In this document: positions 2,044 to 18,016 of the stretch, piece by piece
Layout of the letters: every line of letters starts with the position of its first letter
Position numbering within the stretch: position 1 is the stretch's first letter
Origin: an uncultured Granulosicoccaceae bacterium
GTDB lineage: Bacteria > Pseudomonadota > Gammaproteobacteria > Granulosicoccales > Granulosicoccaceae
Direction of reading: 5' to 3'
Assembly: GCA_937922015.1 (NCBI GenBank)
Contig: CAKZVB010000083.1
Span: 1-32,437 of the forward strand
Length of the DNA: 32,437 nt
Made by a program: the position numbers and the translations under genes
The notes under the pieces: model-generated
The model's input: the letters and a program-made list of their open reading frames with translations, nothing else
Told to the model about the DNA's origin: nothing
Database searches by the model: none

Positions 2044-2513
2044 CACCACACCAGCCCTTGCAACAGCCCCGGAGGCAATGGCACGAGCAGTACTTTGGCG
2101 AAAATAAATTGAATGATCAGGGTGGCGGTAATCGCAACGGCTAAGGAAATATAAATAGTCGAACCCAAACGATACAGCAGAGTCGTCATGATAATTATCG
2201 ACATTGGAATGAAGCCGATGACCGAAGAAAACACAATGTATAGAAGCAGCGCGATCAAAAGAATACTTATGTTTACACGGGCGTCAGAGTTGTCGGTGTT
2301 TGTCTGGATCCATATCGGCTCCGTGCGGTAGGCAAGCAAGCCACGTGCAATAAGCAACAGGCCGCAGGCAATTAACCCCAGACCGATCAGTGTCGGGAAA
2401 AGATCAGGTCCGTAAGATTGGCCATGCAGGGAAGGGAAGGTGCGGGCGTAGGCGATTTCTGCCACGGCAAAAACCACCAGCGCCGCACCGGTAATGGCAT
2501 CGTTTAGACGCAC
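2043..2513 (-). CDS. tctB: Tripartite tricarboxylate transporter, small membrane subunit TctB
   Basis: The 156-residue product is a hydrophobic protein with about four membrane segments, matching the size and pattern of the poorly conserved TctB subunit. An N-terminal pair of helices (residues about 5-55) and a C-terminal pair (about 80-145) flank a polar loop. The only sensible start is GTG at 2513; no in-frame ATG precedes the hydrophobic core. It lies 26 bases after tctC and overlaps tctA by one base. Family assignment rests mainly on context and topology, since TctB proteins diverge strongly. Confidence 0.85.
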   Translation of the reverse strand: MRLNDAITGAALVVFAVAEIAYARTFPSLHGQSYGPDLFPTLIGLGLIACGLLLIARGLLAYRTEPIWIQTNTDNSDARVNISILLIALLLYIVFSSVIGFIPMSIIIMTTLLYRLGSTIYISLAVAITATLIIQFIFAKVLLVPLPPGLLQGLVW

Positions 2514-2539
2514 TTTGGAACTATTGTTGTAACGTTGAG

Positions 2540-3526: not shown

Positions 3527-3796
3527 ACGATGTTTTCCTCCAATTGTAGGTGGCGTGCAGACCTGTGGCGGTCCGTCGCACTTTAGCAAACTAAACTACA
3601 TTAGCCTTGGTCACAAGGATTTTTGTTTGGGTTTTAGTCGTGATGTTGATTCCGCAATTGAGTGCGCCAGTCAATTTTAACCAGTGCCCATGTATTTGGA
3701 CAACAGCAACAAATATCGCAGAAAGGCGTGTGTGGATGATTTATTTGCCGGCAATCCCACTATAATGGCGCTCATGCGAGCAGATCATAAAAATCG
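3527..3796. promoter_or_regulatory. Divergent promoter region, tct operon / sugar-acid operon
   Basis: This 270-bp spacer must hold promoters for both directions. On the plus strand a perfect TATAAT lies at 3761-3766, about 30 bases before the gene at 3797, with only a weak -35 (GATTTA at 3738-3743, 17-bp spacing). On the minus strand the tctC ribosome site GGAGG is at 3537-3541. A stretch at 3648-3671 partly resembles the palindrome at 6714-6737, with about 14 of the first 20 bases alike, and could be a degenerate second site for the same regulator. Confidence 0.45.
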
Positions 3797-4948
3797 ATGA
3801 AAATCTCCGCCGTTGATATCTTTGTCCTGTCCACTCCTCTGGACACTCCTTTCGCGTTTTCACAGGGCTGGGTTCAGCGACGTTCTGCAACGCTGGTTCG
3901 CGTCACCACCGATGATGGTCTGACAGGGTGGGGCGAGGCTTTTGCGCAGGGTTTAGAGCCACCTGAAATTGCTGCCGCCGTAATCGAGCATGCCCTGAAG
4001 CCGCTATTGATTGGCAGGAACCCTCTGGATATCTCAGTGTTATGGCAAAGCATGTACACCCAAAGCAGAGATTATGGCCGCAAAGGATCTGTAATTTCGG
4101 CGATAAGTGCGGTAGACACAGCTCTATGGGACATCAGTGGTCACTTTTATCAGCAACCGGTTTATCAACTGCTTGGTGGCGCGCATCGGACCAGCGTTAA
4201 ACCCTACGCCACCGGTTTCTACCGGTTGGAAGGACAAAACGAGAGTGCCAGGCTAAGCGAAGAGGCGATACAACACCGCGATGCGGGGTTTAGCGCGATG
4301 AAAATAAAGCTTGGTTTCGGTGTTGCAGACGACATAGCAGTGATGGAGGCAATCAACAAAGCGCTTGATGATCCTGCTATCGAACTAATGGTTGACAGTA
4401 ATCATGCCTATGGTCGTTCAGAGGCACTCAAGCTTGGGCGTGCGCTTGAGCAATACAATCTGCGCTGGTATGAAGAACCCGTGGTGCCGGAAGATATCGA
4501 AGGCTATGCAGAGCTCCGGCGCAAGCTTGATGTTCCCATAGCGGGCGGTGAAAACGAACACACGGCCTACGGATTTAATCAATTGTTTCGACAGGATGCG
4601 CTGGATATCGCGCAGCCCGATATCGGTTCATGCGGGGGCATAACAGCGGCGCGTGATATCATAGCGCTGGCGCAGTCCAATGGGGTGGCGGTTAATCCTC
4701 ACGTATGGGGCAGTGCCATTGCTCAGGCGGCTTCATTGCAATTGATTGCAGCGCTGCCGGTGCCAAATCATTCCTTGTATGCACAGCAACCGATACTCGA
4801 ATATGACCGCTCATCGCACCCGTTCAGGCAACAGCTGATCACCGCCCCGTGGGCTATGCAGGGTGGCATGATCCATATTCCCGACGGGCCCGGGCTTGGT
4901 ATTGAGGTTCGTATGGATACCGTAGCGCAGTATCAGGTTAACGCGTAA
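3797..4948 (+). CDS. Enolase-superfamily sugar-acid cycloisomerase/dehydratase (galactarolactone cycloisomerase-like)
   Basis: This 383-residue protein belongs to the mandelate racemase/muconate-lactonizing group. All expected catalytic residues are visible: the KxK base K169/K171 (KIKLGFG), metal ligands D200 (VDSN), E226 (YEEP) and E252 (GGEN), and the His-Asp dyad D275 (QPD) and H302 (PHVWG). From memory it closely resembles Agrobacterium D-galactarolactone cycloisomerase, including EYDRSSHPFRQ and IPDGPGLGIE near the C-terminus. The next two genes make and cleave 2-keto-3-deoxy-6-phosphogalactonate, so the product here is probably 2-keto-3-deoxygalactonate. The substrate could be galactonate (DgoD role), 3,6-anhydro-galactonate (another enolase-superfamily cycloisomerase activity) or a related lactone. 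The start has no clear ribosome site but fits the N-terminus of the family. Confidence 0.9.
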   Translation: MKISAVDIFVLSTPLDTPFAFSQGWVQRRSATLVRVTTDDGLTGWGEAFAQGLEPPEIAAAVIEHALKPLLIGRNPLDISVLWQSMYTQSRDYGRKGSVISAISAVDTALWDISGHFYQQPVYQLLGGAHRTSVKPYATGFYRLEGQNESARLSEEAIQHRDAGFSAMKIKLGFGVADDIAVMEAINKALDDPAIELMVDSNHAYGRSEALKLGRALEQYNLRWYEEPVVPEDIEGYAELRRKLDVPIAGGENEHTAYGFNQLFRQDALDIAQPDIGSCGGITAARDIIALAQSNGVAVNPHVWGSAIAQAASLQLIAALPVPNHSLYAQQPILEYDRSSHPFRQQLITAPWAMQGGMIHIPDGPGLGIEVRMDTVAQYQVNA

Positions 4949-4955
4949 TTTCCCT

Positions 4956-5915
4956 ATGAGTGAACAGCGGATTGTGGCAGGGGTAGACTGGGGGTCGAGT
5001 TCATTCAGGGCGTACCGTTTTGATCACGGCAAAATAACAGACTCAATAACCGCACCAAAGGGTATTAAGTTTATCGATCAGCAGGCAGGTAAAAAATCTG
5101 ATCAATTTGAACAGCTGCTGTTTGACCTGATCGGAGGCTGGCTCGAGCCTGGTGATGGTGTATTGCTGTCCGGCATGATAACCAGCGTTAACGGTTGGGT
5201 TGAAACACCCTACCTTGAATGTCCGGTTAGTTGTCCGGCAGTTGCTACCCGGTTAACGTGCAAATCCGTAAGAGGTATTAATCTGAACTTTCTACCCGGC
5301 GTGTGTCAGCGTGTTCCGCACGCCGATGTTATGCGCGGTGAAGAGCTTCAGTTGTTGGGCGCAGGCATCAACAACACAACAAACTTAATGGTAATGCCGG
5401 GCACTCACTGCAAATGGGCGTTTACAGATTCAGATACCCTGTTGCAATTTCGAACCGTGATGACCGGTGAATTGTATGATGCGCTATACAACCATACATT
5501 GCTGGGGCAGTTCTCGTCGGGTGAACAATGGAGCAATGCGTCTTTCGTGACTGGTGTCGAAAAAGGCTATAGAAGTAACGCTATTGTCAGTGAGTTTTTT
5601 AGCTGTCGCTCAGGTGTGCTGTTAAACGAAATAGAAGCAGAGTATAGCCATTGCTACCTGTCGGGGCTTTTGATCGGCAGCGAGATCAGGGAAGGGCTGA
5701 CGATGATTCCAGCCGCCGAGTCTGCAGAGGTAACTTTAATAGGTACCGACTCTCTGTGTGATCGATATACCACAGCGTTTGAACATCTGGGAGTCGATGT
5801 GTCGCGGTTCACGGCGACTCAGGCATTGTCAGATAATTCAAACTATATAAACGATGCGGCCGCCGCCGGCTTTTCGATGCTGATCAATAACTTCAACAAG
5901 ACGGTCACTACATGA
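4956..5915 (+). CDS. dgoK: 2-dehydro-3-deoxygalactonokinase
   Basis: The predicted reaction is ATP-dependent phosphorylation of 2-keto-3-deoxygalactonate to its 6-phosphate in the cytoplasm. The 319-residue protein opens with the phosphate-binding motif GVDWGSSSFRAYRF (residues 9-22), typical of DgoK. It also shows LSGMITSVNGW, the acid and glycine-rich stretch VMPGTHCKW, and the C-terminal LIGTDSLCDRY characteristic of the family. Length is normal. It starts 8 bases after the cycloisomerase gene and overlaps the aldolase gene by ATGA. With its neighbours it completes the lower De Ley-Doudoroff route. Confidence 0.92.
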   Translation: MSEQRIVAGVDWGSSSFRAYRFDHGKITDSITAPKGIKFIDQQAGKKSDQFEQLLFDLIGGWLEPGDGVLLSGMITSVNGWVETPYLECPVSCPAVATRLTCKSVRGINLNFLPGVCQRVPHADVMRGEELQLLGAGINNTTNLMVMPGTHCKWAFTDSDTLLQFRTVMTGELYDALYNHTLLGQFSSGEQWSNASFVTGVEKGYRSNAIVSEFFSCRSGVLLNEIEAEYSHCYLSGLLIGSEIREGLTMIPAAESAEVTLIGTDSLCDRYTTAFEHLGVDVSRFTATQALSDNSNYINDAAAAGFSMLINNFNKTVTT

Positions 5916-6553
5916 TTGATTCTCTGGTGCAACAATGGCAGTCCGCACTGGACGATCTGCCGTTAATAGCAATACTGCGCGGCGTCACCCCCGATGAGGC
6001 GGTCCCGGTAGCCACTGCATTGATAAAATCAGGTTTCTCAATTATCGAGGTGCCACTAAACTCACCGACACCGCTGGAGACAATTAACATACTGAGCACT
6101 GAGCTTGGTGCCTGCTGTATTATCGGCGCAGGTACGGTACTGAACGATGTGCAGGCAAATGATGTGTATGAAGCCGGTGGTCAACTGATTGTTGCTCCCA
6201 ACTTCGCACCAGCTGTGGCGCGTGTCGCCAGAGAAACCTCGTTGATCTACTGCCCCGGTATTGCCACTCCGACAGAAGCTTTCAATGCACTGGATGCCGG
6301 TGCTGCGGCTTTAAAGCTGTTCCCTGCTGAAATGATCAGCCCGCAGGTTGTAGGCGCTATGCGTGCGGTATTACCCGCGGCGGTGCAGCTGTTGCCGGTG
6401 GGTGGTATTACTCCTGATAACATGGCAGCCTACGTCAGTGCCGGTGCAAACGGGTTTGGAATCGGCTCGGCTCTGTATAAACCGGGCGTCACAATTGACA
6501 GTATTAGCGCTAATGCACAAGTATTCGTTAAGGCTTATAAGAGTATTCAGTAG
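5912..6553 (+). CDS. dgoA: 2-dehydro-3-deoxy-6-phosphogalactonate aldolase
   Basis: This is a class I KDPG/KDPGal aldolase giving pyruvate and glyceraldehyde 3-phosphate. The 213-residue TIM-barrel protein carries PLIAILRGVTPDEA (residues 17-30), E46 in IIEVPLNSP, IGAGTVL (71-77), and the Schiff-base lysine K135 in ALKLFPAE. The C-terminal phosphate-binding loops VGGITPDN and GIGSALY are present. The pattern matches DgoA more closely than Eda. Its ATG overlaps the dgoK stop (ATGA). It is followed by a 223-bp gap with an apparent internal promoter, so the first three genes may form a distinct transcription unit. Confidence 0.92.
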   Translation: MIDSLVQQWQSALDDLPLIAILRGVTPDEAVPVATALIKSGFSIIEVPLNSPTPLETINILSTELGACCIIGAGTVLNDVQANDVYEAGGQLIVAPNFAPAVARVARETSLIYCPGIATPTEAFNALDAGAAALKLFPAEMISPQVVGAMRAVLPAAVQLLPVGGITPDNMAAYVSAGANGFGIGSALYKPGVTIDSISANAQVFVKAYKSIQ

Positions 6554-6672
6554 TAGTGTTTTTCAACGCCTTGTCCCGCTATTCAATTGTATTGTGGAAA
6601 CTCCAGGTCGCGGCATTGATCTACGTCTACTCTAATCCGTCAGATGGGTTAGTCACGGCGTCGTATTGACAA

Positions 6673-6701
6673 TTGCATAAAACTTTTGCCGGTGATAGCA
6701 T
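6673..6701 (+). promoter_or_regulatory. Candidate promoter for the sugar ABC operon
   Basis: TTGCAT (6673-6678) and TAGCAT (6696-6701) are separated by 17 bases. This would place transcription start near 6708, just before the 24-bp palindrome. An alternative -35, TTGACA at 6666-6671, has no well-spaced -10. Confidence 0.35.
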
Positions 6702-6713
6702 CGTCGTTCAACC

Positions 6714-6737
6714 GATTCTGCATTCGAATGCAGAATC
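6714..6737. promoter_or_regulatory. Perfect 24-bp palindrome, probable LacI-family operator
   Basis: The half-site GATTCTGCATTC is followed immediately by its exact reverse complement, with no spacer. The core TGCATTCGAATGCA has the central CG and the outer TG...CA expected of LacI/GalR-family operators. It lies right after the candidate promoter and 28 bp before the ribosome site of the binding-protein gene, a natural position for repression. The LacI-family gene at 13782 in the same operon is the obvious candidate regulator. As RNA it could also fold into a hairpin. Confidence 0.6.
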
Positions 6738-6776
6738 AGCAAAAATTTGTCCCAAATAGCCACCAGGAGGAATCAA

Positions 6777-8018
6777 ATGAACAAGATGGTAAAGTCATCG
6801 TTAATAGCGGTTGGTTTGTTGTCTAACTCAGCGATAGCGTTTGCAGGCTGTGGAATTACAGCCGGTACCGTAAATATTATCGGCAACGAGTTTCCGGCTA
6901 TCCAGACTATTGGCGCCGCTGCCAGTGAGTGCGCCGGTGAAGGGGTTGAGGTCAGTACTAATCTGACAAAGGAACATAAGGAAATACAGGTTCCCGGTCT
7001 CAGTGGTGATCCGGCTGAATATACAGCGGCTATTGTAGCAAATTCATCGATTGTTCCACTGATGAATGACGGGCTTGTCAGGCCGCTCGATGATCTGATA
7101 GCAAAGCATGGTGGAAACTTTACCGATAAACAGAAGATAACTATTGGCGGTAAAGTCATGGCGATTGGCTTCATGGCAAACGCCCAGCATCTTGTGTATC
7201 GCAAAGATATTCTTGAGCAGGCGGGTGTTGAGCCGCCAACCTCCTACGAAGATGTATTAGCAGTGGCGGAGGTAATAAAGTCCAAGGGAATCATGAAGTA
7301 TCCGTTTGGCGCTGCCTATGCTGCAGGTTGGGGCATTGCGCAGGAATTCAACAACATGTTTCTAGGCCACGGTGGTGATTTCTTCATCGAAGGATCTCCA
7401 ATGCCGAACATCAATAATCAGATGGGTGTCGACAGCCTGAACATGATGAAATCATTGACCGCCTATATGAACCCTGATTTTCTAACGTTGAATAACAATG
7501 AAATCAACGCAGAATGGAAGGCAGGTAATCTGGCTATTATGCAAATGTGGGGCTCGCGTGCAGGTCCGCTGCTCTCTGATGAAGGCTCTGCCCCCGGTGT
7601 TGCCGAGAATACAGTGCTGTTTAATCCTCCAACGGTAGGCGACGGCAAAGTGCCTGCTACCACATTGTGGTGGGACGGATTTACCATCGCAAGAAATATC
7701 TCTGATGAAGACGCCGAGGCTTCCTACCTGGCATTAGTCAATGCTATCGACCCGAAAATCATGACAGACGAAGTTGCCTCACAGGCGGTATGGATGATTG
7801 ACGGCTATAAGCCCACTCCAGCTTCTGCCGGAGTATTCGCCACTATCGAAGCAGGCGCAAAGCCTTACCCGATGATACCGTACGAGTCACTGCTGCACTC
7901 GGCGTTGGGTGCTGAATTGCCGGATTTTTTCTCAGGCAAAGAGTCTGCTGAAAAAACATTAGCTGATGTTGAAGCAGCCTATATCGTCGCTGCCAAAGAG
8001 AAAGGGTTTATCAATTAA
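6777..8018 (+). CDS. ABC sugar transporter, periplasmic solute-binding protein
   Basis: This is a family-1 extracellular solute-binding protein, the periplasmic receptor for the following permeases and ATPase. ATG 6777 is chosen over the upstream TTG 6747 because AGGAGG sits at 6765-6770 with 6-base spacing, and the protein then starts with a signal peptide (MNKMVKSS, hydrophobic core, cut near AFA, residue 23). At 413 residues it has the normal size. The mature part has the family features, including the ligand-contact stretch NAQHLVYRKDILEQAGVEPPTSYED and the tryptophan-rich MQMWGSRAG and TTLWWDGFTIA. A cysteine lies two residues after the likely cut, but the lipobox is poor. The ligand is unknown; a sugar, polyol or sugar acid fits the operon. 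Confidence 0.92.
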   Translation: MNKMVKSSLIAVGLLSNSAIAFAGCGITAGTVNIIGNEFPAIQTIGAAASECAGEGVEVSTNLTKEHKEIQVPGLSGDPAEYTAAIVANSSIVPLMNDGLVRPLDDLIAKHGGNFTDKQKITIGGKVMAIGFMANAQHLVYRKDILEQAGVEPPTSYEDVLAVAEVIKSKGIMKYPFGAAYAAGWGIAQEFNNMFLGHGGDFFIEGSPMPNINNQMGVDSLNMMKSLTAYMNPDFLTLNNNEINAEWKAGNLAIMQMWGSRAGPLLSDEGSAPGVAENTVLFNPPTVGDGKVPATTLWWDGFTIARNISDEDAEASYLALVNAIDPKIMTDEVASQAVWMIDGYKPTPASAGVFATIEAGAKPYPMIPYESLLHSALGAELPDFFSGKESAEKTLADVEAAYIVAAKEKGFIN

Positions 8019-8056
8019 AGCGCATCGGTAACATTTAAAAGTGATCGAACTGAATC

Positions 8057-8078
8057 GGGAGAGGTTTACACCTCTCCC
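8057..8078 (+). promoter_or_regulatory. Intercistronic stem-loop after the binding-protein gene
   Basis: GGGAGAGGT and ACCTCTCCC form a perfect 9-bp stem with a 4-base loop (TTAC). No T run follows, so it is unlikely to be a full intrinsic terminator. In binding-protein operons such structures often protect the upstream mRNA or attenuate, keeping the receptor in excess over the permeases. Confidence 0.7.
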
Positions 8079-8126
8079 ACGTTTGAAATACCTGCCATTG
8101 ATGCTTTTTTGTTATCCGGTTGCCCA

Positions 8127-9152
8127 GTGAAACATCGCACTTTTTTCTGGTTTTTTCTGCCTACAGCATTGGCAATGCTGTTGTTTATCTTTCTGCCAAT
8201 CATCTCGGTTATAACCCAGTCCCTGCACATAGCGCATGAACAGGTTTTTGTTGAAGTCGAAAATTGTGATTTTTTCGGTTGCAAGAAGTCGACTTCTGTT
8301 GATCGCGCCGCTACCGAGCAATTGCGCAGTGAGAAGCCGCTGGGTCGTTTTGTCGGACTGGATAACTATTTTAATCGCAGCCATCTGGCTTCGAGTGAAC
8401 TGGCTGCGGCGTGGGAATCTTCTGCGTCACTGGGTGAATTTTATAACCAGTTGTTCAATCTCCCTCTGTATAGAGCCATCATATTTACGCTGGTGTATAC
8501 CGCAGTAGTTACACCATTGCTGATCATATTCGGCTTTATTGTTGCCGTAGCGGTGAATTCCATAAACGAAAAGCTTAAAGGCCTGGTGATTTTCTTTTCA
8601 CTGTTGCCGATGATTGTCACACCATTGGTGGGGTCATTGATATTGTTCTGGATGATTGACGCGCGAGGGATAATTGGCAGTACACTGCAAATATTGCTGG
8701 ATAATCCTGATCTGTCGTTAAAAGCATCCACACCTTTGACCTGGATAACCCTGATCGTCTACGGGGTCTGGCACGCAACACCATTTGCGTTTGTTGTATT
8801 CTACGCCGGCCTGCAAACGCTGCCACAAGATACATTAGAGTCCGCAATGATAGATGGCGCCAGCCGCTGGGAGCGCATCCGATATGTGGTTATACCGCAT
8901 CTTATGCCATTGGTTACGTTTGTGGCACTGATACAGCTGATGGATAATTTCAGGGTGTTTGAACCGATTGTGGGATTTAATGCATCAGCGCATGCTACAT
9001 CGTTGTCATGGATTATCTACAATGATCTCGATGGCGAGTCCCGGTTATTGTCTTCAGCTTCCACCACATCAGTGCTTACTATTATCGGCGTGATTATTTT
9101 ATTGTCTCCGGTACTGGTGCGTGCATGGCGTGACTGGGACAGGCAGGCTTAG
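8127..9152 (+). CDS. ABC sugar transporter permease (MalF-like)
   Basis: This inner-membrane channel subunit has the EAA loop that contacts the ATPase: ESAMIDGASRWERIRYVVIPHL, ending in the usual proline. Starting at GTG 8127 gives a protein of 341 residues opening MKHRTFFWFFLP, right before the first membrane helix; a TTG at 8109 would add six residues. Neither start has a strong ribosome site. Between helix 1 and helix 2 there is a large periplasmic insert, about residues 35-130, with two nearby cysteines (C47, C52) that could form a disulfide. It pairs with the permease starting 2 bases after its stop. Confidence 0.88.
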   Translation: MKHRTFFWFFLPTALAMLLFIFLPIISVITQSLHIAHEQVFVEVENCDFFGCKKSTSVDRAATEQLRSEKPLGRFVGLDNYFNRSHLASSELAAAWESSASLGEFYNQLFNLPLYRAIIFTLVYTAVVTPLLIIFGFIVAVAVNSINEKLKGLVIFFSLLPMIVTPLVGSLILFWMIDARGIIGSTLQILLDNPDLSLKASTPLTWITLIVYGVWHATPFAFVVFYAGLQTLPQDTLESAMIDGASRWERIRYVVIPHLMPLVTFVALIQLMDNFRVFEPIVGFNASAHATSLSWIIYNDLDGESRLLSSASTTSVLTIIGVIILLSPVLVRAWRDWDRQA

Positions 9153-9154
9153 CG

Positions 9155-10039
9155 ATGAATTCATCTATAGTAGAAAACAAGCCGTTGTCATTAAAGTTGT
9201 TTTCCGGTGTGTTTATAATTATCTGGTTGTTCGTTGCAGCGTTTCCCTTTTTCTGGACATTCTGGGGTTCGTTTAAAGTAGAGCTTGATTTTTTCTCTAA
9301 AGAAAACTGGACCAATGCAATTACAGGCATTAGAACGCTGCATGAGACCGGTGGCAATTTTACCGGCAACGGATATCACGGCGCATGGGTACAGGAAGAG
9401 TTCTGGCGGGCGTCGCTCAATACAGGCATCGTCTGCTTCTTTGTGGTTTTAATTTCACTGACTATCGGCACGCTGGGTGGCTATGCACTGTCGCGCTCAA
9501 ATTTTCGATATGCCTTCTGGTTGTTGATCCTGGCGCTTGTGTTCAGAGCGATGCCGCCAATCACTCTGGTATCCGGTTACCTGCTGCCGTTTTTTGAATG
9601 GGGGCTGTGGGGAAAGCTGTCGACGACTATCGTGGTACTTGTAGCCATTAACCAGCCCTTTACTTTATGGATGTTGCACTCGTTCTTTAAGAAAATCCCT
9701 AAAGAGCTGGATGAAAGCGCAATGGTGGATGGCTGCACAGCGTTTCAGGCGTTTCGCCATGTCATTATTCCGGTAATGTGGCCGGGGGTGATCACCACTG
9801 GTTTGTTTTCATTTCTGCTTGCTTACAACGACTTTGCAGTGACAGCAATGTTGTTGTCCAAGGAGAATCAAACCATGGTGCCGAAAATCGCGAGTTTCAT
9901 GGGTACCACGCAAACTGAAGGTAATGTGATGTTTGCGGTGGCAGCGGTGGTTCTGGCTACAGTGCCGCTGTTTATACTGGTTATGTTCTTTCAACGTCAG
10001 ATTGTAAGCGGGCTGACCGCCGGTGCAGTCAAAGGTTAA
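9155..10039 (+). CDS. ABC sugar transporter permease (MalG-like)
   Basis: This is the second membrane subunit of the sugar ABC importer, 294 residues. The first helix (about 14-38) is followed by a periplasmic loop (about 40-85) and then a five-helix permease core. The EAA loop is at about residues 186-206 (DESAMVDGCTAFQAFRHVIIP). The C-terminal FFQRQIVSGLTAGAVKG is a typical MalG-type ending. It begins 2 bases after the first permease and ends 8 bases before the ATPase gene, so the three are co-translated. Confidence 0.92.
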   Translation: MNSSIVENKPLSLKLFSGVFIIIWLFVAAFPFFWTFWGSFKVELDFFSKENWTNAITGIRTLHETGGNFTGNGYHGAWVQEEFWRASLNTGIVCFFVVLISLTIGTLGGYALSRSNFRYAFWLLILALVFRAMPPITLVSGYLLPFFEWGLWGKLSTTIVVLVAINQPFTLWMLHSFFKKIPKELDESAMVDGCTAFQAFRHVIIPVMWPGVITTGLFSFLLAYNDFAVTAMLLSKENQTMVPKIASFMGTTQTEGNVMFAVAAVVLATVPLFILVMFFQRQIVSGLTAGAVKG

Positions 10040-10047
10040 CTGGTTAA

Positions 10048-11142
10048 ATGGCGAGTATAAGTTTAAAAAAGGTGAGCAAACGGTGGGGTGACTTTGTCGC
10101 GGTTCACGAGTTTGACCTCGACATTCAGGACAAAGAGTTTCTGGTATTGCTGGGGCCGTCGGGCTGCGGTAAAACCACCACCATGCGAATCATTGCGGGG
10201 CTTGAGACTTCCTCATCGGGCGAGGTCTGGATTGGTGATCGAGTGGTCAATAAACTGGAACCGAAAGACCGCGACGTCGCCATGGTGTTTCAAAGTTATG
10301 GTCTGTACCCGAACATGACTGTCTGGGAGAATATTCGATTTCCACTTAAAGTACGCAAGGTCGATCCATCTACCCATGACGAACGAGTGCAGCGCGCTGT
10401 CGATATGGTAGAACTCGGTGAATTTACCCACCGTCGACCGGCAGAGCTTTCCGGCGGTCAGCGACAGCGGGTGGCATTGGCAAGGGCGATAGTACGTGAG
10501 CCGACAGTATTCTTAATGGATGAGCCACTATCCAATCTCGATGCCAAACTGCGCGTATCAACCAGAGCGCAGATTAAAAACCTGCAGAATACACTTGCTA
10601 CCACCACCATCTATGTCACACACGATCAAATCGAAGCTATGACCCTTGCTGACAGAGTGGTAGTGATGAATGGAGGCAAGGTGCAGCAAGTGGGTACACC
10701 CGTCGAGATTTACGATAAACCACAGAATACCTTTGTAGCGGGTTTTATCGGCTCACCATCAATGAACCTCATCGAAGGCACTATTAACAATGGCACGTTC
10801 GCCTCGGAAAACGTTTCTGTCAGCGGTTTTGATCAATCCCTCAGTGGCGGTGTGACTCTTGGATTTCGGGCAGAAGATGCCGCAATAAATAGTCAGTCTG
10901 AGACGCAGGCATTTAGCGCCGGCACAGCGGATGGCATATCGGCACCGGTGTATTCTATGGAGCTATTGGGTGAGGCTACCATGGTAACGATGCGCGTGGC
11001 CGGTGCACTGGTATCGGTTAAGGCGGCCAAGGATTACCGCATAGCGATTGGCGAGCAGGGCCACATTAGTGTGCCAGCTAGAATATGTCATCTGTTTGAT
11101 CGAAATACCGGTAATAGACTGAAGGATGGTATGAATGACTGA
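10048..11142 (+). CDS. ABC sugar transporter ATPase (MalK/UgpC-like)
   Basis: This 364-residue ATPase energises sugar import. Visible motifs are Walker A GPSGCGKT (36-43), Q-loop Q82, signature LSGGQ (134-138), Walker B VFLMDEP (154-160), D-loop SNLD and the switch histidine H192. The C-terminal third (about 240-350) fits the TOBE/regulatory domain of the MalK subfamily, with PSMNL and GFRAED landmarks. It overlaps the next gene, an NTF2-like protein, by 8 bases, which ties transport directly to the downstream catabolic genes. Confidence 0.94.
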
Positions 11143-11656
11143 AGCAGATGCGCAAGAGCATAGAAAAAAATCGCAGGCTACGCTTAAGGTTATTAAGAAC
11201 ATGGAGCAGGCACTGGCCGACAACTCTAATGAGATGTCCGACTATTTTCACGATCACTTCAAATGGATAGGCAATTACGGCAGTGGTACCAAGGAAGGTT
11301 TGCAGGCGTTTAGAGATAACTGGCAGTTGCCGCTTCGGGCAGCATTTACGGAACGCCAATACAACACCGATAAATTTCTGGTCGATGGTGAATGGGCTTC
11401 CTGCTTTGGCCATATAGAGGCTACTCACAGCGGTATATTTATGGGTATTGAAGCAACTGGCAAGCGGGTAAAGATTCCCTACATGGACTTCTGGAAAGTC
11501 ACTGACGGAAAAATAGAAGATAACCGCGTATCAGTAGATTATGCATTTGTGATGGCTCAGTTAGGAGTGGATGTGTTTAACGGACACGGCTGGGAAGCTT
11601 ATGATCGTGGCGAAAGAATTCCTGAACACCCAGAAGATACTAATACCAGTACGTAA
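11135..11656 (+). CDS. NTF2/SnoaL-like protein, single domain
   Basis: The 173-residue product fits the NTF2-like cone fold used by SnoaL-type cyclases, hydratases and many small binding proteins. Landmarks are an N-terminal helix (about 8-35), the [18 protein letters not shown] segment, and the paired strands [28 protein letters not shown], the usual closing strands of the fold. The reaction cannot be predicted from sequence. The gene overlaps the ATPase gene by 8 bases and precedes the HisD-like gene by 33 bases. It is one of three NTF2-like genes in the window; the others each carry two domains. Confidence 0.8.
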
Positions 11657-11689
11657 ACTAATAGAAAGATCCAAGCGTGGACAGTGCAC

Positions 11690-13018
11690 ATGATTAATTA
11701 TCTGAAAAAAAGCATCGCTGAAGATGAAAAGGCTTTAGAAAAAAACAATGTCAAGGAGATTGTTGCCGATGGTTTGCGTCAGATCGAAGAGCACGGCGAC
11801 AATGCGGTGCGGGAAATGTCCGACCGTTTTGACAACTACTCACCAGCGGATTTCCGGCTTACTCAAGCCGATATCGACGCATTGATGGCGACACTGAGCG
11901 CACAGGAACTGACAGATTTAAAATTTGCGCAGGCACAGGTACGCAATTTTGCACTCGCACAGCGTGCATCAATGACAGACATCGAAGTAGAGACACTGCC
12001 CGGTGTTGTTCTGGGACACAAAAATATACCGGTACAATCCGTGGGCTGTTATGTGCCCGGGGGAAAATTCCCGATGGTCGCGTCAGCTCATATGTCCGTG
12101 GTCACCGCCAACGTTGCCGGAGTGCCGCGCATCGTCGCCATGACGCCGCCATTCAATGGCAAACCCAACGCCGCTGTTATCACAGCTATGCATCTGGGCG
12201 GTGCACATGAAATCTATGTGCTTGGCGGTATTCAGGCGGTAGGTGCAATGGCGCTGGGCACTGAGTCGATAAAACCCGTTCATATGCTGGTGGGGCCGGG
12301 CAATGCCTATGTTGCTGAGGCCAAGCGTCAGTTGTACGGGCGTGTAGGTATTGATCTGTTTGCCGGCCCGACCGAAACCATGGTCATCGCAGACGATACT
12401 GTCGATGCTGAATTATGTGCAACCGATCTGCTCGGTCAGGCCGAGCATGGCTACAACTCCCCGGCTGTGCTTATCACCAACTCCCGCCAACTGGCGGTTG
12501 ATACCATGGCCGAAATAGAGCGTCTGTTGCAAATATTGCCCACCGCCGAGACAGCCTCCATTAGCTGGAGAGACTACGGTGAGGTTATTGTCTGCGATAC
12601 CTATGAAGAAATGCTTGATATAGCCAACGAGATTTCATCAGAACACGTGCAGGTGATGACTGATCGGGATGACTGGTTTTTAGAGCACATGCATTCATAC
12701 GGTGCTTTATTTCTGGGTCCACGCACCAATGTTGCAAATGGCGATAAAGTCATTGGTACCAATCACACGTTGCCAACTGAAAAAGCCGGTCGCTACACAG
12801 GGGGCTTATGGGTTGGGAAATTTCTTAAAACACATACCTATCAGAAAGTACTGACCGATGAGGCGGCCGCCAATATTGCAGAATACGGATCACGGTTGTG
12901 TATCCTCGAAGGTTTTGTCGGCCACGCCGAGCAATGCAACGTGCGGGCACGACGATACGGTGGTCGAAACATACCTTATGGTGAAGCGGCACAACCGATA
13001 GATAAAGCAGATCTATAA
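11690..13018 (+). CDS. Histidinol-dehydrogenase-family polyol/alcohol dehydrogenase
   Basis: This 442-residue protein keeps the HisD zinc ligands Q250, H253, D352 and H412 and the catalytic residues E318-H319 (SSEHV) and H359 (GTNHTLPT). It lies in a sugar-uptake operon with no other his genes. From memory it aligns better with the HpsN group (sulfopropanediol 3-dehydrogenase) than with true HisD, for example [19 protein letters not shown] and [15 protein letters not shown]. It probably oxidises a primary alcohol to a carboxylate in two NAD-dependent steps. ATG 11690 is chosen; a GTG two codons earlier is possible. It joins the SDR gene by sharing one base (TAATG). The real substrate is unknown. 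Confidence 0.88.
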
Positions 13019-13782
13019 TGCATTTACCGCGAACCCCATCATTTCGACTGGAAGGTAAAAGAGCACTTGTTACCGGTGCTTCTTCAGGCATTGGCTTTGC
13101 CGCTGCGGTCGCGCTGGCCGAAGCCGGCGCGCATGTGGTGTTGGCAGCGAGAAATATTGACCAGGTCAACGAGTGCGTAACGGCGTTGACTGACGCGGGT
13201 TTTCAAGCCAGTGGTCAGCGCCTGGATCTCTCAGAGATTGAACAGACCGGCGCTGCCGTACTGGCGCTGGAGCCGTTTGATATTCTGGTCAACAGTGCCG
13301 GAAGTGCCCGACACAGTCCGGCTGAGCAAACCACAGAGGCTGACTTTGATTTTGTGTCAGATCTCAATATCAAGGGCGCATTTTTCATCACTCAGGCAGT
13401 AGCAAAGAACCTGCTGCAGGCGGGGCGACCGGGGTCATTGATTAATATCTCTTCTCAGATGGCGCATGTTGGAGGTGTAGACCGTGCTGTGTACTGTGCA
13501 AGCAAACACGCGGTGGAAGGTTTTACAAAGTCTATGGCAATAGAGTTTGGTCCGCACCAGATAAGAGTAAATACAATCTGCCCCACATTTATCAGAACGC
13601 CGTTGACGCAACCGACGTTTAATAATCCACAGCGTGTGGCCTGGATCGAAGAAAAAATAAAACTTGGTCGTGTTGGTGAGGTAGAAGACATCATGGGGGC
13701 AGTGGTTTATCTGGCGTCAGATGCCTCTGCGCTGGTGACCGGTACTTCGCTGCTGGTAGATGGTGGCTGGACGGCAGACTGA
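13018..13782 (+). CDS. SDR-family NAD(P)-dependent oxidoreductase
   Basis: This is a classical short-chain dehydrogenase of 254 residues. It has the nucleotide motif TGASSGIG (19-26), NSAG (92-95), the catalytic serine region ISSQ (144-147), the YxxxK pair Y159 and K163, and the C-terminal LVDGGWTAD common to this class. The R44-R45-type start of the second strand (VLAARN) suggests NADP may be accepted, but this is weak. It is coupled to the HisD-like gene upstream and to the lacI-type gene downstream (TGATG). A role as a sugar or polyol dehydrogenase acting with the HisD-like enzyme is inferred from the neighbours. Confidence 0.92.
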   Translation: MHLPRTPSFRLEGKRALVTGASSGIGFAAAVALAEAGAHVVLAARNIDQVNECVTALTDAGFQASGQRLDLSEIEQTGAAVLALEPFDILVNSAGSARHSPAEQTTEADFDFVSDLNIKGAFFITQAVAKNLLQAGRPGSLINISSQMAHVGGVDRAVYCASKHAVEGFTKSMAIEFGPHQIRVNTICPTFIRTPLTQPTFNNPQRVAWIEEKIKLGRVGEVEDIMGAVVYLASDASALVTGTSLLVDGGWTAD

Positions 13783-14864
13783 TGGCGAAGACAGTTGTCA
13801 CATCACAGCAGGTAGCAAGAAAGGCGGGGGTCAGTCAGTCTGCGGTGAGTCGGGTGTTTTCAAGCGGTGGCAGTGCCTCGAGGAAGATGACTGAAAGGGT
13901 GATGAAGGCCGCTGACGAATTAGGTTACCGACCAAACGTAATAGCGCGATCTCTGATTACGGGGCAGTCAAAAATGATAGGGCTGGTGGTAGCCTATCTG
14001 GAAAACCAGTTTTATTCCGATGCGCTGGAAAAGCTGTCTATAGCGTTGCAGGCGCAGGGCTATCAGGTGCTGGTTTTCATGTCGAAGCGCACCAATGAAA
14101 ATGCGGGTCAACTACTGGATGAATTGCTCGATTATCAGGTCGATGGAATCGTCATGGTGTCAGCGGCAATGTCTTCTGATCTGGCGGCGCGTTGTGACAA
14201 GGCCGGAGTGCCCGTCGTGCTGCTCAACAGAAGGCAGGATGATGAAACCTTGTCTGCTGTTACCTCCAATAATGTACTGGGTGGAAAAAAGGTAGCGCAA
14301 TTTCTAATAGCCGGCGGGCACCAGCGCATAGCGCACATCGCTGGCTGGGAGGGTGCTTCAACACAACGTGACAGAGAAACGGGATTTTTACGTGAACTCA
14401 ACGCGAGCGGTCGGGAGCTCTTCGCGCGGGAAGTTGGCGACTATCATTATCACTCTGCACAGAACGCCACCCGAGCTATGTTTTCGAAGAAACACACCCC
14501 CGATGCCGTGTTTGTCGGTAACGATCACATGGCGATAGCCGCCATGGATTGCATTCGATATGAATTCAAACTGCGTATACCGCAAGACGTTTCCATTGTC
14601 GGATATGATGATGTTGAGCAGGCTGGTTGGCCAAGCTTTGCGTTAACCACTATCCGCCAACCATCAAACAGATTGGTAGAAGAAACAGTAAAAACACTGC
14701 TTGATCAAATTAAAGTCTCAGATCAACCTCCAAGGCGTATTGAAATTGAAGGCGATCTGATAGTCAGGTCATCTGCGCGTATTCCTGAGGGCTGGAAAAT
14801 TCAAGCCAATGAAACTGCGCACCGTGCAGACGAACGCGAGCTATCCACCGAGGCCAGTCAATGA
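13782..14864 (+). CDS. LacI-family transcriptional regulator
   Basis: The 360-residue protein has an N-terminal LacI helix-turn-helix (about 7-26, VTSQQVARKAGVSQSAVSRV) and the hinge-helix region ending GYRPNVIARSLITGQS. A periplasmic-binding-protein-like effector domain follows (about 65-335, with VFVGNDHMAIAAMD and DVSIVGYDDVE). It is buried mid-operon and coupled on both sides (TGATG before, ATGA after), so it is probably autoregulated with the operon. The likely operator is the 24-bp palindrome at 6714-6737. The effector is expected to be a sugar-like pathway intermediate. The C-terminal tail of about 25 residues beyond the usual domain is polar and probably disordered. Confidence 0.95.
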   Translation: MAKTVVTSQQVARKAGVSQSAVSRVFSSGGSASRKMTERVMKAADELGYRPNVIARSLITGQSKMIGLVVAYLENQFYSDALEKLSIALQAQGYQVLVFMSKRTNENAGQLLDELLDYQVDGIVMVSAAMSSDLAARCDKAGVPVVLLNRRQDDETLSAVTSNNVLGGKKVAQFLIAGGHQRIAHIAGWEGASTQRDRETGFLRELNASGRELFAREVGDYHYHSAQNATRAMFSKKHTPDAVFVGNDHMAIAAMDCIRYEFKLRIPQDVSIVGYDDVEQAGWPSFALTTIRQPSNRLVEETVKTLLDQIKVSDQPPRRIEIEGDLIVRSSARIPEGWKIQANETAHRADERELSTEASQ

Positions 14865-15853
14865 AAGGGTTTGATGATCGCTGGAAAGATTTTCCAGATT
14901 ACATTATCGGGATAACCAATGAAATATGGGAGCAGCGGGGTATTGAGACGCTGAACCGTTATTACTCCCCGGACATTCCTGTGCGCTCACCAATGGGCAT
15001 TCAACTGGGCAATCAGGCGGTCATTGCCTCTACCATGGCAACGGTTAACGAGTTCCCTGACAGAGAGTTGTTTGCAGAAGATGTGATCTGGTCCGGTAGC
15101 CCCGACACCCAGTTATTATCGTCCCATCGCATCATGACCACTGCGACACACAGTCGGGACGGCGCTTTTGGTAAAGCTTCCGGCAAGCGGTTTAAAGTGC
15201 GTGTTATTGCCGACTGTGCAGCAAAAGACAACACCATTTTTGATGAATGGCTGATACGTGATTACGGTGGCATTGTCAGGCAGCTTGGCGTAGCGCCAAA
15301 ACGGTTTGCAAAAAACCTGATCGAACAGGAAGGTGGGATAAAAAAATGTGCAAAGCCGTTTACGCCGGCAAATGATGTTGCAGGCGACTATGTCGGTACC
15401 GGCAATGATAATCCCTGGGGAGTGAGATACGCAGAAGTCCTGACGCGTTTAATGAACAAGGAATTTTCTATTGTCCACAGTGACTATGACCGCGCTGTAC
15501 AAACCGAATACGCTGGTGGTGTCTCTGGTTTGTCGCGTGTATCAGTCAATGAATTCTGGCTGGGCCTGCGTTCATCGTTTCCCGATGCAGAATTCCGGAT
15601 TCATCATCAAATCGGCATGGATGGAGACATGTTACCCCCACGCTCAGCGATTAGATGGTCGCTCGACGGCACACATGACGGCTGGGGAACTTTTGGCAAA
15701 CCAACTGGTGCCGAGGTACATGTGATGGGCATGTGTCATGCGGAGTTCGGGCCTTTCGGTGACAAGGGCAGCTCTGTCAGGCGTGAATATGCATTGTATG
15801 ATGAGATAGCGATCTGGAAACAAATCCTGATGCACTCCCTGAAAAATACCTGA
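14861..15853 (+). CDS. Double NTF2/SnoaL-like protein
   Basis: The 330-residue product appears to contain two NTF2-like domains, about residues 5-150 and 185-325. Each runs from an acidic N-terminal helix to a closing aromatic strand (IFDEWLIRDYGGIVRQLG in the first, VRREYALYDEIAIWKQIL in the second). The second domain holds a conserved-looking histidine and acid set (HHQIGMDGD, HVMGMCHAEFGPFG). I cannot name a reaction; NTF2-like proteins include cyclases, dehydratases and binding proteins. It overlaps the regulator gene (ATGA) and the bicupin gene (TGATG). It resembles the product of 19303-20352 in layout. Confidence 0.75.
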   Translation: MKGFDDRWKDFPDYIIGITNEIWEQRGIETLNRYYSPDIPVRSPMGIQLGNQAVIASTMATVNEFPDRELFAEDVIWSGSPDTQLLSSHRIMTTATHSRDGAFGKASGKRFKVRVIADCAAKDNTIFDEWLIRDYGGIVRQLGVAPKRFAKNLIEQEGGIKKCAKPFTPANDVAGDYVGTGNDNPWGVRYAEVLTRLMNKEFSIVHSDYDRAVQTEYAGGVSGLSRVSVNEFWLGLRSSFPDAEFRIHHQIGMDGDMLPPRSAIRWSLDGTHDGWGTFGKPTGAEVHVMGMCHAEFGPFGDKGSSVRREYALYDEIAIWKQILMHSLKNT

Positions 15854-16878
15854 TGCACTCCCGGACGAATAGCAAGAGCAGCGTGATGACAACGGTGCAA
15901 ATGAATGATCGGATTGTCCGCTACGGTGAACTACAACCCTGCAAGACGGCATTTATAGATGCGCACACACCGGGCTCTGATCAAAAAGAAAACTTCACCA
16001 TCGTTGGCGCTGGTGTGTCTGAAAGTGCTGATCAGCATGTACATATAGCCGATACCCCGGGTTTTAATATTGGTGCTGCAGGGCAGCCACCGGGTTGTCG
16101 CAATTCATTGCATGTGCATACCACCGCTGAAGTGTTCTTTGTACTCAAGGGTCGCTGGCGATTTTTCTGGGGCCGCCATGGAGATGCCGGTGACGTCATT
16201 CTGGAAGAGGGCGATATTATTGATATCCCCACCGGTATTTTTCGAGGTTTCGAAAACATTGGCACCGACTACGGAATGATCATGGCTATTCTGGGCGGCG
16301 ATGATGCCGGTGGCGGTGTCGAATGGGCGCCGCAGGTTATACAGGACGCCACTGAACACGGTCTGGTGCTGGGGGACAACAGGGTGCTTTATGACACGAC
16401 GCAGGGGCAGCAACTGCCACAAGGTGTCGGACCGATGCCAGTGATGAGTGAAGAAAGTCTGGCTGGTATTCCTGAATTCAGCGCTGCTCAGGTGGTGCCC
16501 AATTTTGTTGCCCGCTATCATGATCTAATGGCGCTCTCCAGATGCCAGCCCGCCAGCGTAATCGGTGCTGATGCAATAATAAAAGACCGTCCCGGCTTTG
16601 ACGTTGATCTGCTGTCACGCGAATCCATCAGCAGGGATATGTACCAGCGGGAACATCATGAAATTCTTATGGTGATGCGCGGGCACTGGCGGCTGGGCTG
16701 GGGTCATGATGAAACCGCCGGCGAGGCCATTCTGGCGCCGGGTGATACCTGTGCCGTGCCTCCGGGACTGGCGCATTCGCTGTGGCCGTCAATGAGCGGT
16801 GAAGCCAGTCTTTATCGTGTAACCGGTAATGACGATCCTGCAGGGCCAACACAACTACCCGCCTCTTTTTCAATCTGA
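15853..16878 (+). CDS. Bicupin-domain protein
   Basis: Two cupin domains are visible in 341 residues. The first has the metal motif HVHTTAEVFFVLKG (H87, H89, E93) and the second half-motif GDIIDIPTGIFRGFEN, where the usual histidine is replaced. The second has REHHEILMVMRG (H268, H269 and E270 region) and GDTCAVPPGLAHSLWP with H308, so it looks metal-competent. Related bicupins include ring-cleaving dioxygenases and sugar-modifying enzymes; neither can be preferred here. It is coupled to the NTF2 gene upstream and followed after 16 bases by the MetE-like gene. The start has alternatives: an ATG at residue 12 also fits. Confidence 0.82.
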   Translation: MHSRTNSKSSVMTTVQMNDRIVRYGELQPCKTAFIDAHTPGSDQKENFTIVGAGVSESADQHVHIADTPGFNIGAAGQPPGCRNSLHVHTTAEVFFVLKGRWRFFWGRHGDAGDVILEEGDIIDIPTGIFRGFENIGTDYGMIMAILGGDDAGGGVEWAPQVIQDATEHGLVLGDNRVLYDTTQGQQLPQGVGPMPVMSEESLAGIPEFSAAQVVPNFVARYHDLMALSRCQPASVIGADAIIKDRPGFDVDLLSRESISRDMYQREHHEILMVMRGHWRLGWGHDETAGEAILAPGDTCAVPPGLAHSLWPSMSGEASLYRVTGNDDPAGPTQLPASFSI

Positions 16879-16894
16879 TAACGGTAAATTTGCC

Positions 16895-18016
16895 ATGTCT
16901 AAAGTACTGACTACCCATGTCGGTTCACTGCCCCGAACACAACATGTGGTCGATTTCATTTTTGCACGCGAAAACAACCAGCCGTTTAATCAGGCAGAGT
17001 TTGATCGCTGCATGACTGAGGCCTGTGACCAGACAGTGCTCAGGCAGGTAGAGGCGGGTGTCGATATTGTATCCGATGGCGAGACCTCAAAAATATCCTA
17101 TGCCACCTATGTTAAAGATCGCTACACCGGATTTTCCGGAGACAGTGATCGCAATGCACCCGGTGATCTGAAATTGTTTCCCGGTTATTTAAAACGGCTG
17201 GCGGACGATGGCGGCACACCAAAGTATGCACGCCCCAGGTGCACGGGAGCCGTGAATTCAAAAGGACAGTCTGAACTGGGTAAAGACATAGCCAACCTGA
17301 AGAAAGCTATGGCGGCGCATGGTGCAAAGCGCGGCTTCATGAACGCAGCCTCTCCGGGCGTTATTTCGTTGTTCCTGCAAAACGAATACTACAAGGATCG
17401 CGAGGCATATCTCGCTGCACTTGCGGATGCGATGAAAGCGGAGTACGAGACTATTGTAGCGTCGGGGCTTGATCTGCAACTCGATTGCCCCGACCTGGCA
17501 CTGTCGCGGCACATGCTGTTTGCTGATGTTTCAGACTCTGAGTTTATAAAAATAGCTAATACCCATGTTGAGGCATTAAATCATGCTCTGAGTGATATAC
17601 CACAGGAAAAGGTACGCCTGCACATCTGCTGGGGTAACTATGAAGGTCCGCATGTCTGCGATATCGACATGGACAAAGTCTTCAGTACGCTTATGGGTGT
17701 TAAGGCAAGCTATTTACTCTTTGAAACGTCCAACCCCAGACACGCACACGAGTGGACAGTGTTTCGTGATCGGGCTTCTGAGATACCAGACGACAAAATA
17801 CTGGTGCCCGGTGTTTTAGATACCACCACTAACTTTGTCGAACACCCGCAATTGGTGGCACAGCGCTTACAGCGGTTTATCGATATCGTCGGGAGTGAGC
17901 GTGTTGTAGCGGGTACTGATTGCGGTTTTGGCACATTTGCGGGCTTTGGAACCGTTGATCCGGATATTGCTTATGCAAAACTCAACGCTATGGCTGAGGG
18001 AGTGAAGTTACTGTAG
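16895..18016 (+). CDS. MetE C-terminal-like zinc methyltransferase, stand-alone
   Basis: The 373-residue protein matches only the catalytic C-terminal barrel of cobalamin-independent methionine synthase, with no N-terminal MetE domain. All four zinc ligands are in place: H243 and C245 (HICWG), E277 (LFETSN) and C343 (GTDCGFG). The N-terminal THVGSLPR and DGETSK are also family hallmarks. Stand-alone members activate a thiol for alkyl transfer, including demethylases and epoxyalkane:coenzyme M transferase relatives. ATG 16895 is chosen because the longer frame to 16829 overlaps the bicupin and reads unlike a coding extension. It ends the operon. A role in removing a methyl or other alkyl group from the substrate is inference. 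Confidence 0.87.
   Translation: MSKVLTTHVGSLPRTQHVVDFIFARENNQPFNQAEFDRCMTEACDQTVLRQVEAGVDIVSDGETSKISYATYVKDRYTGFSGDSDRNAPGDLKLFPGYLKRLADDGGTPKYARPRCTGAVNSKGQSELGKDIANLKKAMAAHGAKRGFMNAASPGVISLFLQNEYYKDREAYLAALADAMKAEYETIVASGLDLQLDCPDLALSRHMLFADVSDSEFIKIANTHVEALNHALSDIPQEKVRLHICWGNYEGPHVCDIDMDKVFSTLMGVKASYLLFETSNPRHAHEWTVFRDRASEIPDDKILVPGVLDTTTNFVEHPQLVAQRLQRFIDIVGSERVVAGTDCGFGTFAGFGTVDPDIAYAKLNAMAEGVKLL

Follow-up and report, generated by a model that had tools for sequence, protein, structure and literature searches.

A sugar-importer-linked gene set, probably LacI-controlled, beside a sugar-acid operon in an uncultured Granulosicoccaceae bacterium

The DNA described here, hereafter the window, is contig C83 (CAKZVB010000083.1, 32,437 nucleotides) of a 5.0 Mb draft metagenome-assembled genome (MAG; 332 contigs, 80.6% complete) of an uncultured Granulosicoccaceae bacterium, and carries a run of 14 genes between 3797 and 18016. 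On balance, we favor the view that these genes are two independent units abutting at 6553/6777, namely unit 1 (3797-6553), with three genes of the dgo type, and unit 2 (6777-18016), a LacI-controlled catabolic regulon for a sugar-derived compound. An earlier note had taken the 14 genes as a single block. All 14 open reading frames (ORFs), their common direction and the families named for them are confirmed by the ORF list, Pfam and NCBIfam (Table 1), but the run is not unbroken. Consecutive ORFs are separated by 7, -4, 223, 90, 2, 8, -8, 27, -1, -1, -4, -1 and 16 bases, the last value with the corrected start of the MetE-like gene, and the largest gap, 223 bases between dgoA and the gene of the solute-binding protein (SBP), holds a perfect palindrome of LacI-operator type. 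Behind it stand the genes of the importer (SBP, permeases PermA and PermB, MalK-type ATPase), a single SnoaL-fold protein (Sno1), a HisD-like dehydrogenase, a short-chain dehydrogenase (SDR), a LacI-family regulator, a tandem SnoaL-fold protein (Sno2), a bicupin and a MetE-like protein. The reverse-strand gene of another double SnoaL-type protein, Sno3r, is probably a further member of unit 2, because its relatives are divergent neighbors of the same cluster elsewhere.

A palindrome shared by the genes of unit 2

The palindrome, CTGCATTCGAATGCAG at 6718-6733, has a central CG and lies 43 bases upstream of the SBP start; a weight matrix made from the sites of relatives ranks it top in the window. 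In 79 bicupin loci of relatives (1,433,998 bases) the pattern TTGCANNCGNNTGCAA occurs at 36 sites, as against none for the reversed pattern, and 27 of the 36 fall within -60 to +250 bases of the ORF start of a core gene (ORF starts are mechanical and distances rough). Eleven loci hold a bicupin gene and no other core gene, and in six of them (L113, L114, L116, L138, L155 and L182) a site stands at that orphan gene. Bicupin genes that stand alone after this palindrome, apart from the main cluster, may mean that the bicupin carries out a shared or limiting step. Because the palindrome stands at the starts of core genes, including those of the six orphan bicupins, unit 2 is probably a LacI-controlled regulon with this palindrome as candidate operator. 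A regulator gene within the cluster and a conserved palindrome before its genes are the features expected of a local regulon.

Scans of 14 whole genomes yield 39 sites, spread over 13 of the 14, and the control pattern yields 2. Two of these genomes, G057 and G058, are those of L113 and L114; each has a further site at the main cluster, which lies on a different contig from the orphan bicupin. In G069 a site stands at a detached ABC transporter. Linkage of this kind is independent of gene neighborhood. The 14-mer form is present in 8 of 20 stretches around core genes of relatives, seven times at the cluster and once (L054) inside another long ORF. In the genome of the window itself, a loose 14-mer finds 11 sites against 3 for the control. 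Ten of the 11 were inspected, and the one in the window is the sole site of the TGCAT-ATGCA type between genes; seven of the other nine lie inside or overlap ORFs (one, L189, of the AACCGG type, in a short ORF). Sites of the AACCGG type in this genome precede alcohol-dehydrogenase-like and IolE-like genes, named from their N-termini.

Unit 1 stands outside this pattern. No palindrome is found ahead of dgoD in the window within two mismatches, and none near Sno3r. We searched 57 genomes, that of the window included, with Sno2, DgoK, the dgoD-like protein and the bicupin. Leaving the window genome aside, the dgoD-like protein is present in 23 at a minimum of 60% identity and the bicupin in 26 at a minimum of 65%; 17 contain both, and in 17 of 17 the two are on separate contigs, which in draft genomes gives no distance between them. 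Sixteen dgo loci of relatives were inspected over some 1-10 kb on each side as contigs allowed; 14 of the loci come from the 17 genomes with both proteins. The three dgo genes are contiguous in eight, the dgoD-like gene stands without them in seven and a contig end cuts the remaining one; these 16 loci hold no relative of HisD, SnoaL, bicupin, MetE or LacI, and neither the 16-mer nor the 14-mer palindrome in their 228,309 bases. Conversely, in BLAST with the window proteins, none of the 36 loci L022-L057 shows a relative of DgoK or DgoA. Among the best 80 bicupin loci, DgoK and DgoA occur in one (L162), on the opposite strand and beyond other genes, and DgoD in none. The earlier note had the whole block ending in 2-keto-3-deoxygalactonate (KDGal) and had itself named separation of the dgo-like and later genes in relatives as the observation to set against it. 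Such separation is what we find, and with a palindrome that follows dgoA it counts against a shared ending; as a general feature of these clusters the galactonate ending is rejected.

Conservation and candidate chemistry of unit 2

A scan of the genome collection with a bicupin alignment confirmed at least 550 relatives, the best 80 loci of which form the basis of the counts given here; many of these loci end at contig ends, often near MalK, and the counts are uncorrected for phylogeny. At BLAST thresholds, the 80 loci hold bicupin in 79, LacI in 56, HisD in 54, Sno2 in 51, SDR in 48, MetE in 45, Sno3r-type proteins in 36, MalK and PermA in 35 each, SBP in 32, PermB in 31 and Sno1 in 22. Additional genes are those of RraA (35 loci) and of a PcaD-like alpha/beta hydrolase (31), adjacency not being required. 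The co-occurrence of HisD-like, double-SnoaL, bicupin and MetE-like families, for which the earlier note had proposed a neighborhood search, is thus borne out. Unit 2 recurs in Alphaproteobacteria and Granulosicoccaceae, the best 80 loci including Roseobacter-group, rhizobial, Roseibium, Paraburkholderia and other genomes. Protein searches of plasmids (E 1e-5, any identity) return 53 records for the double-SnoaL protein, 64 for the bicupin, 43 for the MetE-like and 381 for the HisD-like protein, many of them distant (260 of the 381 HisD-like matches are below 60% identity). On plasmids of Ruegeria, Paracoccus, Marinovum and Octadecabacter the gene order is importer, Sno1, HisD, Sno3, SDR, LacI, Sno2, bicupin, MetE, alpha/beta hydrolase and RraA, each with at least one loss or insertion; clusters of Sinorhizobium medicae, Martelella and Labrenzia keep HisD, SDR, LacI, bicupin and RraA and have no close Sno2 or MetE. 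The same gene order in many genomes is far beyond chance adjacency. Twenty-one gene pairs were tested in the 47 loci with HisD and sufficient flank, with p values that ignore phylogeny and the number of tests. Sno2 co-occurs with Sno3r (31, 6, 1, 9; p 3e-5), with Sno1 (22, 15, 0, 10; p 8e-4) and with MetE (30, 7, 3, 7; p 0.004), and pairs with MalK, SDR or LacI show no association. Judged by gene content and the palindrome, unit 2 is a conserved, apparently co-regulated, sugar-importer-linked gene set.

Several loci depart from this layout. At L035 and L037 HisD-SDR pairs stand without SnoaL genes beside a TAXI-TRAP importer, L035 having in addition an HpaI/GarL-like aldolase. A fuconolactonase-like gene lies next to a divergent Sno3r in 4 of the 13 loci of that arrangement (L022, L032, L216 and L223; two of the 13 loci end there), and at L025 an SMP-30 gene faces Sno3r. 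Close RraA proteins (62-67% identity) are found in G002, G012, G015 and G016 among 36 genomes searched. Reduced versions occur on plasmids of Vibrio pelagius (L024:6505-16143; importer and four SnoaL-type proteins) and Ensifer (L026:9113-20937; importer, Sno2, HpcH aldolase, 3-oxo-tetronate kinase and aldolase), the Ensifer kinase exceeding the 3-oxo-tetronate kinase cut-off. In Ruegeria sp. AD91A a gene for an S-adenosylmethionine-dependent methyltransferase lies between bicupin and MetE (L022:16144-16746), with a relative in 2 of the best 80 loci. In Sinorhizobium medicae ml29 the HisD-like gene is seen as two separate ORF matches (L028:10440-12100) and may be broken in that strain.

Among solved structures, HpsN, an enzyme of dihydroxypropanesulfonate (DHPS) breakdown, is nearest to the HisD-like enzyme and scores 374 bits against 261 for the top HisD chain. 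In the available text of PMC11382572, HisD has the motif GSAPL where HpsN has GRY[AS]H, and His126 of HpsN binds the sulfonate. The unit 2 proteins (window plus relatives at 60% identity or more) have GKFPM in 47 of 52 and GKYPM in 5 of 52 at this position, with His126 replaced by Met in 52 of 52. Q252, H255, E320, H321, D354 and H414, the zinc ligands and catalytic Glu-His, are at least 97% conserved (n=52). The motif argues firmly against identity with HpsN, and the DHPS pathway is rejected on the same ground. The genome has four HisD-family loci, that of the window, one of 552 bits on contig C187, one with GRYSH and a fragment. The C187 protein, presumably the biosynthetic one, has GKAAYPSS in place of GSAPL, so the motif alone does not define the HisD family, and the case against histidinol as substrate rests on context and paralogy. 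The GRYSH protein (L233; G000:C303:4-1221) is of HpsN type and suggests use of sulfopropanediol by the same organism.

The MetE-like protein probably starts at 16895 and not at 16829, because conservation among its relatives sets in at residue 30 of the long ORF and an ATG stands at 16895. It has no folate-binding domain and scores far under the NCBIfam methionine synthase cut-offs. Numbered from 16829 and matched by motif, H265, C267, E299 and C365 (zinc) and S33, E85 and D219 (homocysteine) are at least 97% conserved (n=46); these roles are those given for MetE and core methionine synthases in the available text of PMC7857596. The structural models of Sno2 and the bicupin are rated by the predicted local distance difference test (pLDDT) in Table 1. 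Sno2 has polyketide cyclases as its top Foldseek matches. In the bicupin the first domain is the conserved one, and Arg131, invariant in 24 of 24, occupies the cupin position where a third histidine is usual. Its model is weak at residues 32-58 and matches general bicupins, with oxalate decarboxylase and quercetinase folds among the 50 matches listed. Neither fold names a substrate, Sno2 giving SnoaL-type matches and the bicupin general bicupins, so this line was dropped. The top solved relatives of the SBP bind chitin oligosaccharides, sugars and sulfoquinovosylglycerol at E 1e-10 to 1e-7, too weak to name a ligand, and this line was likewise given up. Pantoate, betaine lipids and mycosporines were also thought of as substrates and set aside, without evidence.

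How might these proteins act together? The ABC importer would bring in a sugar-derived compound, on which the SnoaL-fold proteins may perform acid-base elimination, isomerisation or ring opening. The HisD-like enzyme, modelled on HpsN with sulfopropanediol, would oxidize a terminal vicinal diol to a 2-hydroxy acid in a four-electron step, and the SDR, modelled on sulfolactate dehydrogenase in the sulfopropanediol route, would carry the 2-hydroxy acid to a 2-oxo acid. The bicupin and, where present, the enol-lactonase-like alpha/beta hydrolase could open the product, and an RraA- or HpaI-type aldolase could cleave the 2-oxo acid; alternatively, SnoaL proteins and bicupin may prepare the substrate ahead of the HisD, SDR and aldol steps. 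The MetE-like protein would use homocysteine or another thiol as acceptor of a methyl group. It is conceivable, though doubtful, that unit 2 is a new pathway with new enzyme roles. In it, tandem SnoaL-fold proteins would serve as lyases or isomerases on a sugar-derived, probably methylated compound, the terminal diol of that compound would be turned into a 2-hydroxy acid by an enzyme of a third HisD type, and the methyl group would be transferred directly to homocysteine by a core MetE that needs no folate. Marine and soil bacteria would in this way link the use of an algal and plant compound to their methionine supply. The enzyme set as such is unusual and probably new. No published description of it was found in the literature searched for it, from which subscription papers were mostly absent, and together with the conserved importer-linked set and the common palindrome this supports the idea in the earlier note of an undescribed pathway for the later genes. 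If the route is new, functions would follow for multi-domain proteins annotated as ester cyclases, for a HisD paralogue that carries the name histidinol dehydrogenase and for a stand-alone MetE listed as methionine synthase. The reach is wide, with bicupin relatives encoded in at least 550 stretches of public genomes, and the shared importer, regulator and operator offer a direct way to the substrate.

Unit 1, the neighboring genes and the readings weighed

For unit 1, the galactonate-type route proposed in the earlier note stands in part. The KDGal kinase and the 2-keto-3-deoxy-6-phosphogalactonate (KDPGal) aldolase of the dgo pathway are both present, but the first enzyme reaches 208 bits against the 311-bit cut-off of the NCBIfam galactonate dehydratase equivalog, and its top solved relatives are cycloisomerases. 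One of them, 5olc, deposited under the name galactonate dehydratase, is in the available text of PMC5698469 the 3,6-anhydro-D-galactonate cycloisomerase DauB, and 4ggb is there the galactarolactone cycloisomerase AtGCI. The catalytic Lys, Asp, Glu, Glu and His named in that text are aligned in the first enzyme and invariant in 17 of 17 proteins (window and 16 relatives); being common to DauB and AtGCI, they are therefore not specific for the anhydrogalactose route. By its relatives, the first enzyme is probably a DauB/AtGCI-like cycloisomerase or a sugar-acid dehydratase, and because kinase and aldolase genes stand behind it, its product is probably KDGal. Unit 1 would thereby take a galactonate-type or anhydrogalactonate-type acid through KDGal to pyruvate and glyceraldehyde 3-phosphate. 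A carrageenan route was considered and rejected, because a Pfam scan of 28 window proteins finds no DauA-like aldehyde dehydrogenase and no GH127 (PF07944) is found in the 80.6% complete genome; other anhydro sugars or galactonate remain candidates.

Table 1. Positions in the window of the genes and the candidate operator
Feature	Coordinates	Strand	Basis
Enolase-superfamily enzyme, unit 1	3797..4948	+	Pfam MR_MLE; best PDB 5olc, 4ggb
2-keto-3-deoxygalactonate kinase, DgoK/DauC type, unit 1	4956..5915	+	Pfam DGOK PF05035, 258.8 bits; no NCBIfam match
KDPGal aldolase (DgoA), unit 1	5912..6553	+	NF006600, 275 bits, cut-off 207
Candidate LacI-type operator CTGCATTCGAATGCAG, perfect palindrome, start of unit 2	6718..6733	.	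Related sites precede core genes in relatives
Sugar-type ABC solute-binding protein, unit 2	6777..8018	+	Pfam SBP_bac_1; AGGAGG ahead of ATG 6777
ABC permease, unit 2	8109..9152	+	Pfam BPD_transp_1
ABC permease, unit 2	9155..10039	+	Pfam BPD_transp_1
ABC ATPase, MalK/UgpC type, unit 2	10048..11142	+	Pfam ABC_tran, TOBE_2
Sno1, single SnoaL-fold protein, unit 2	11135..11656	+	Pfam SnoaL; match to SnoaL 1sjw
HisD-family dehydrogenase with GKFPM, unit 2	11684..13018	+	HpsN nearest among solved structures
Short-chain dehydrogenase (SDR), unit 2	13018..13782	+	Pfam adh_short_C2; top NCBIfam KduD, under its cut-off
LacI-family regulator, unit 2	13782..14864	+	Pfam LacI, Peripla_BP_1
Sno2, tandem double SnoaL-fold protein, unit 2	14861..15853	+	Pfam SnoaL; model pLDDT 94.3; SnoaL-type structure matches
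Bicupin, unit 2	15853..16878	+	Pfam Cupin_2; model pLDDT 82.3; bicupin structure matches
Core MetE-like protein, unit 2	16895..18016 (mechanical ORF from 16829)	+	Pfam Meth_synt_2
Sno3r, double SnoaL-type protein, probable unit 2 member	19303..20352	-	Pfam SnoaL, two stretches; relatives divergent from MalK beside core
FAD_binding_3 monooxygenase-like gene adjoining Sno3r, membership doubtful	18099..19253	-	Pfam

Around the 14 genes, a complete TctABC tripartite tricarboxylate-type transporter (547-3589) is divergent from the dgoD-like gene; BLAST shows no counterpart in the 16 inspected dgo loci of relatives. Right behind the block lie an HlyD-type adaptor and an AcrB-type RND pump (20637-25132). 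They are followed by genes of a VOC-type protein, a weakly Sulf_transp-like protein (Pfam, just under cut-off) and a TauD dioxygenase (25210-28091) and by an amino-acid type ABC importer with binding protein, two permeases and ATPase (28593-32291).

A number of observations weigh against unit 2 as a LacI-controlled regulon with the proposed chemistry. Nine of the 36 sites lie away from the start of a core gene; two of these (L131 and L165) are of the AACCGGTT type and are taken as belonging to another regulator, L182 is just ahead of the bicupin match and the rest lie by unassigned ORFs. Five of the 11 orphan bicupins have no palindrome, the G064 site (L220) has no core gene beside it, and the sites in G061 (L221) adjoin another LacI gene. 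The palindrome of the window itself departs from the 16-mer TTGCANNCGNNTGCAA at its outer bases (C and G), and the 14-mer with two mismatches is no commoner in the window than expected by chance. As for the chemistry, which is argued from protein families, the HisD-like protein scores above the NCBIfam cut-off for hisD (TIGR00069; 420.9 against 243.8), and the fuconolactonase-like gene is in none of the best 80 loci, many of which end near MalK. Finally, a close RraA is not found in the window genome (41% at best, in a MAG of the stated completeness) and the window cluster has no alpha/beta hydrolase, so the last step is missing here and room is left for unit 1.

That room is the starting point for the view that the genes from dgoD-like to MetE form, at least in this species, a single pathway leading from a modified or anhydro sugar to KDGal. 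The genes share one strand, and the 223-base gap shows no terminator-like site in a simple scan, so read-through from unit 1 is possible. The first enzyme resembles anhydrogalactonate cycloisomerase, and a sugar-acid stage is suggested by the lactonase-like genes that lie beside the clusters of some relatives. Given that the dgo genes are on other contigs in all 17 relatives, that the palindrome lies downstream of dgoA with none upstream of dgoD, that the 16 dgo loci lack it and that GH127 of the carrageenan route is not found in the genome, we regard a single pathway as fairly unlikely. A different concern is that the junction of dgo and core genes is an assembly error and the neighborhood not real, in a draft MAG of 332 contigs and with a juxtaposition not seen in relatives. 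No marked GC shift is detected at the junction in 2-kb windows, a coarse test, and we hold such an error to be quite unlikely.

Two further accounts concern the substrate. A DHPS-type sulfonate operon would have the HisD-like protein as HpsN and the adjoining SDR as HpsO, in line with HpsN structures as top PDB relatives. This is very improbable in view of the Met at the His126 position throughout, the lack of a sulfolyase among the 28 Pfam-scanned window proteins and the separate GRYSH protein in the genome. The substrate could instead be an aromatic or polyketide-like glycoside, with SnoaL proteins and bicupin acting on the ring and the FAD enzyme hydroxylating it. The polyketide cyclase matches of Sno2, the quercetinase among the bicupin matches, the PcaD-like hydrolase and the nearby FAD_binding_3 gene are consistent with that route. 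We consider it unlikely, however, as the FAD_binding_3 gene has no relative at 30% identity in the best 80 core loci, the first cupin has Arg131, and a LacI regulator with a sugar-type importer would suit a sugar better. The preferred reading remains that of two abutting units, unit 2 being a LacI-controlled regulon for a sugar-derived compound.

Comparison with known systems

Unit 2 resembles the local LacI-family sugar regulons surveyed in PMC4052901 in having its regulator in the cluster and a palindromic motif with central CG, yet the available text of that survey, tables aside, names no regulon like it. With the HpsN-HpsO module of DHPS 3-dehydrogenase it shares the HisD fold, the zinc and catalytic residues and an SDR partner, whereas its own enzyme has Met at His126, no sulfolyase is seen in the window scan, and LacI, a sugar-type importer, SnoaL proteins and bicupin stand alongside. 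Unit 1 shares kinase and aldolase with the dau/dgo lower pathway and the cycloisomerase residues with DauB and AtGCI, but a DauA-like dehydrogenase is absent from the 28 window proteins scanned, GH127 is not found in the genome, and unit 1 lies outside the unit 2 regulon. Like the core methionine synthases MesA-D, as described in the available text of PMC7857596, the MetE-like protein lacks the folate domain and keeps the zinc HCEC and homocysteine S/E/D residues; unlike them, it is far under the NCBIfam cut-offs and is located in a catabolic cluster. The SnoaL fold (Pfam, Foldseek) is that of the SnoaL-family polyketide cyclases, whereas unit 2 has tandem proteins of this fold in a sugar-importer-linked cluster.

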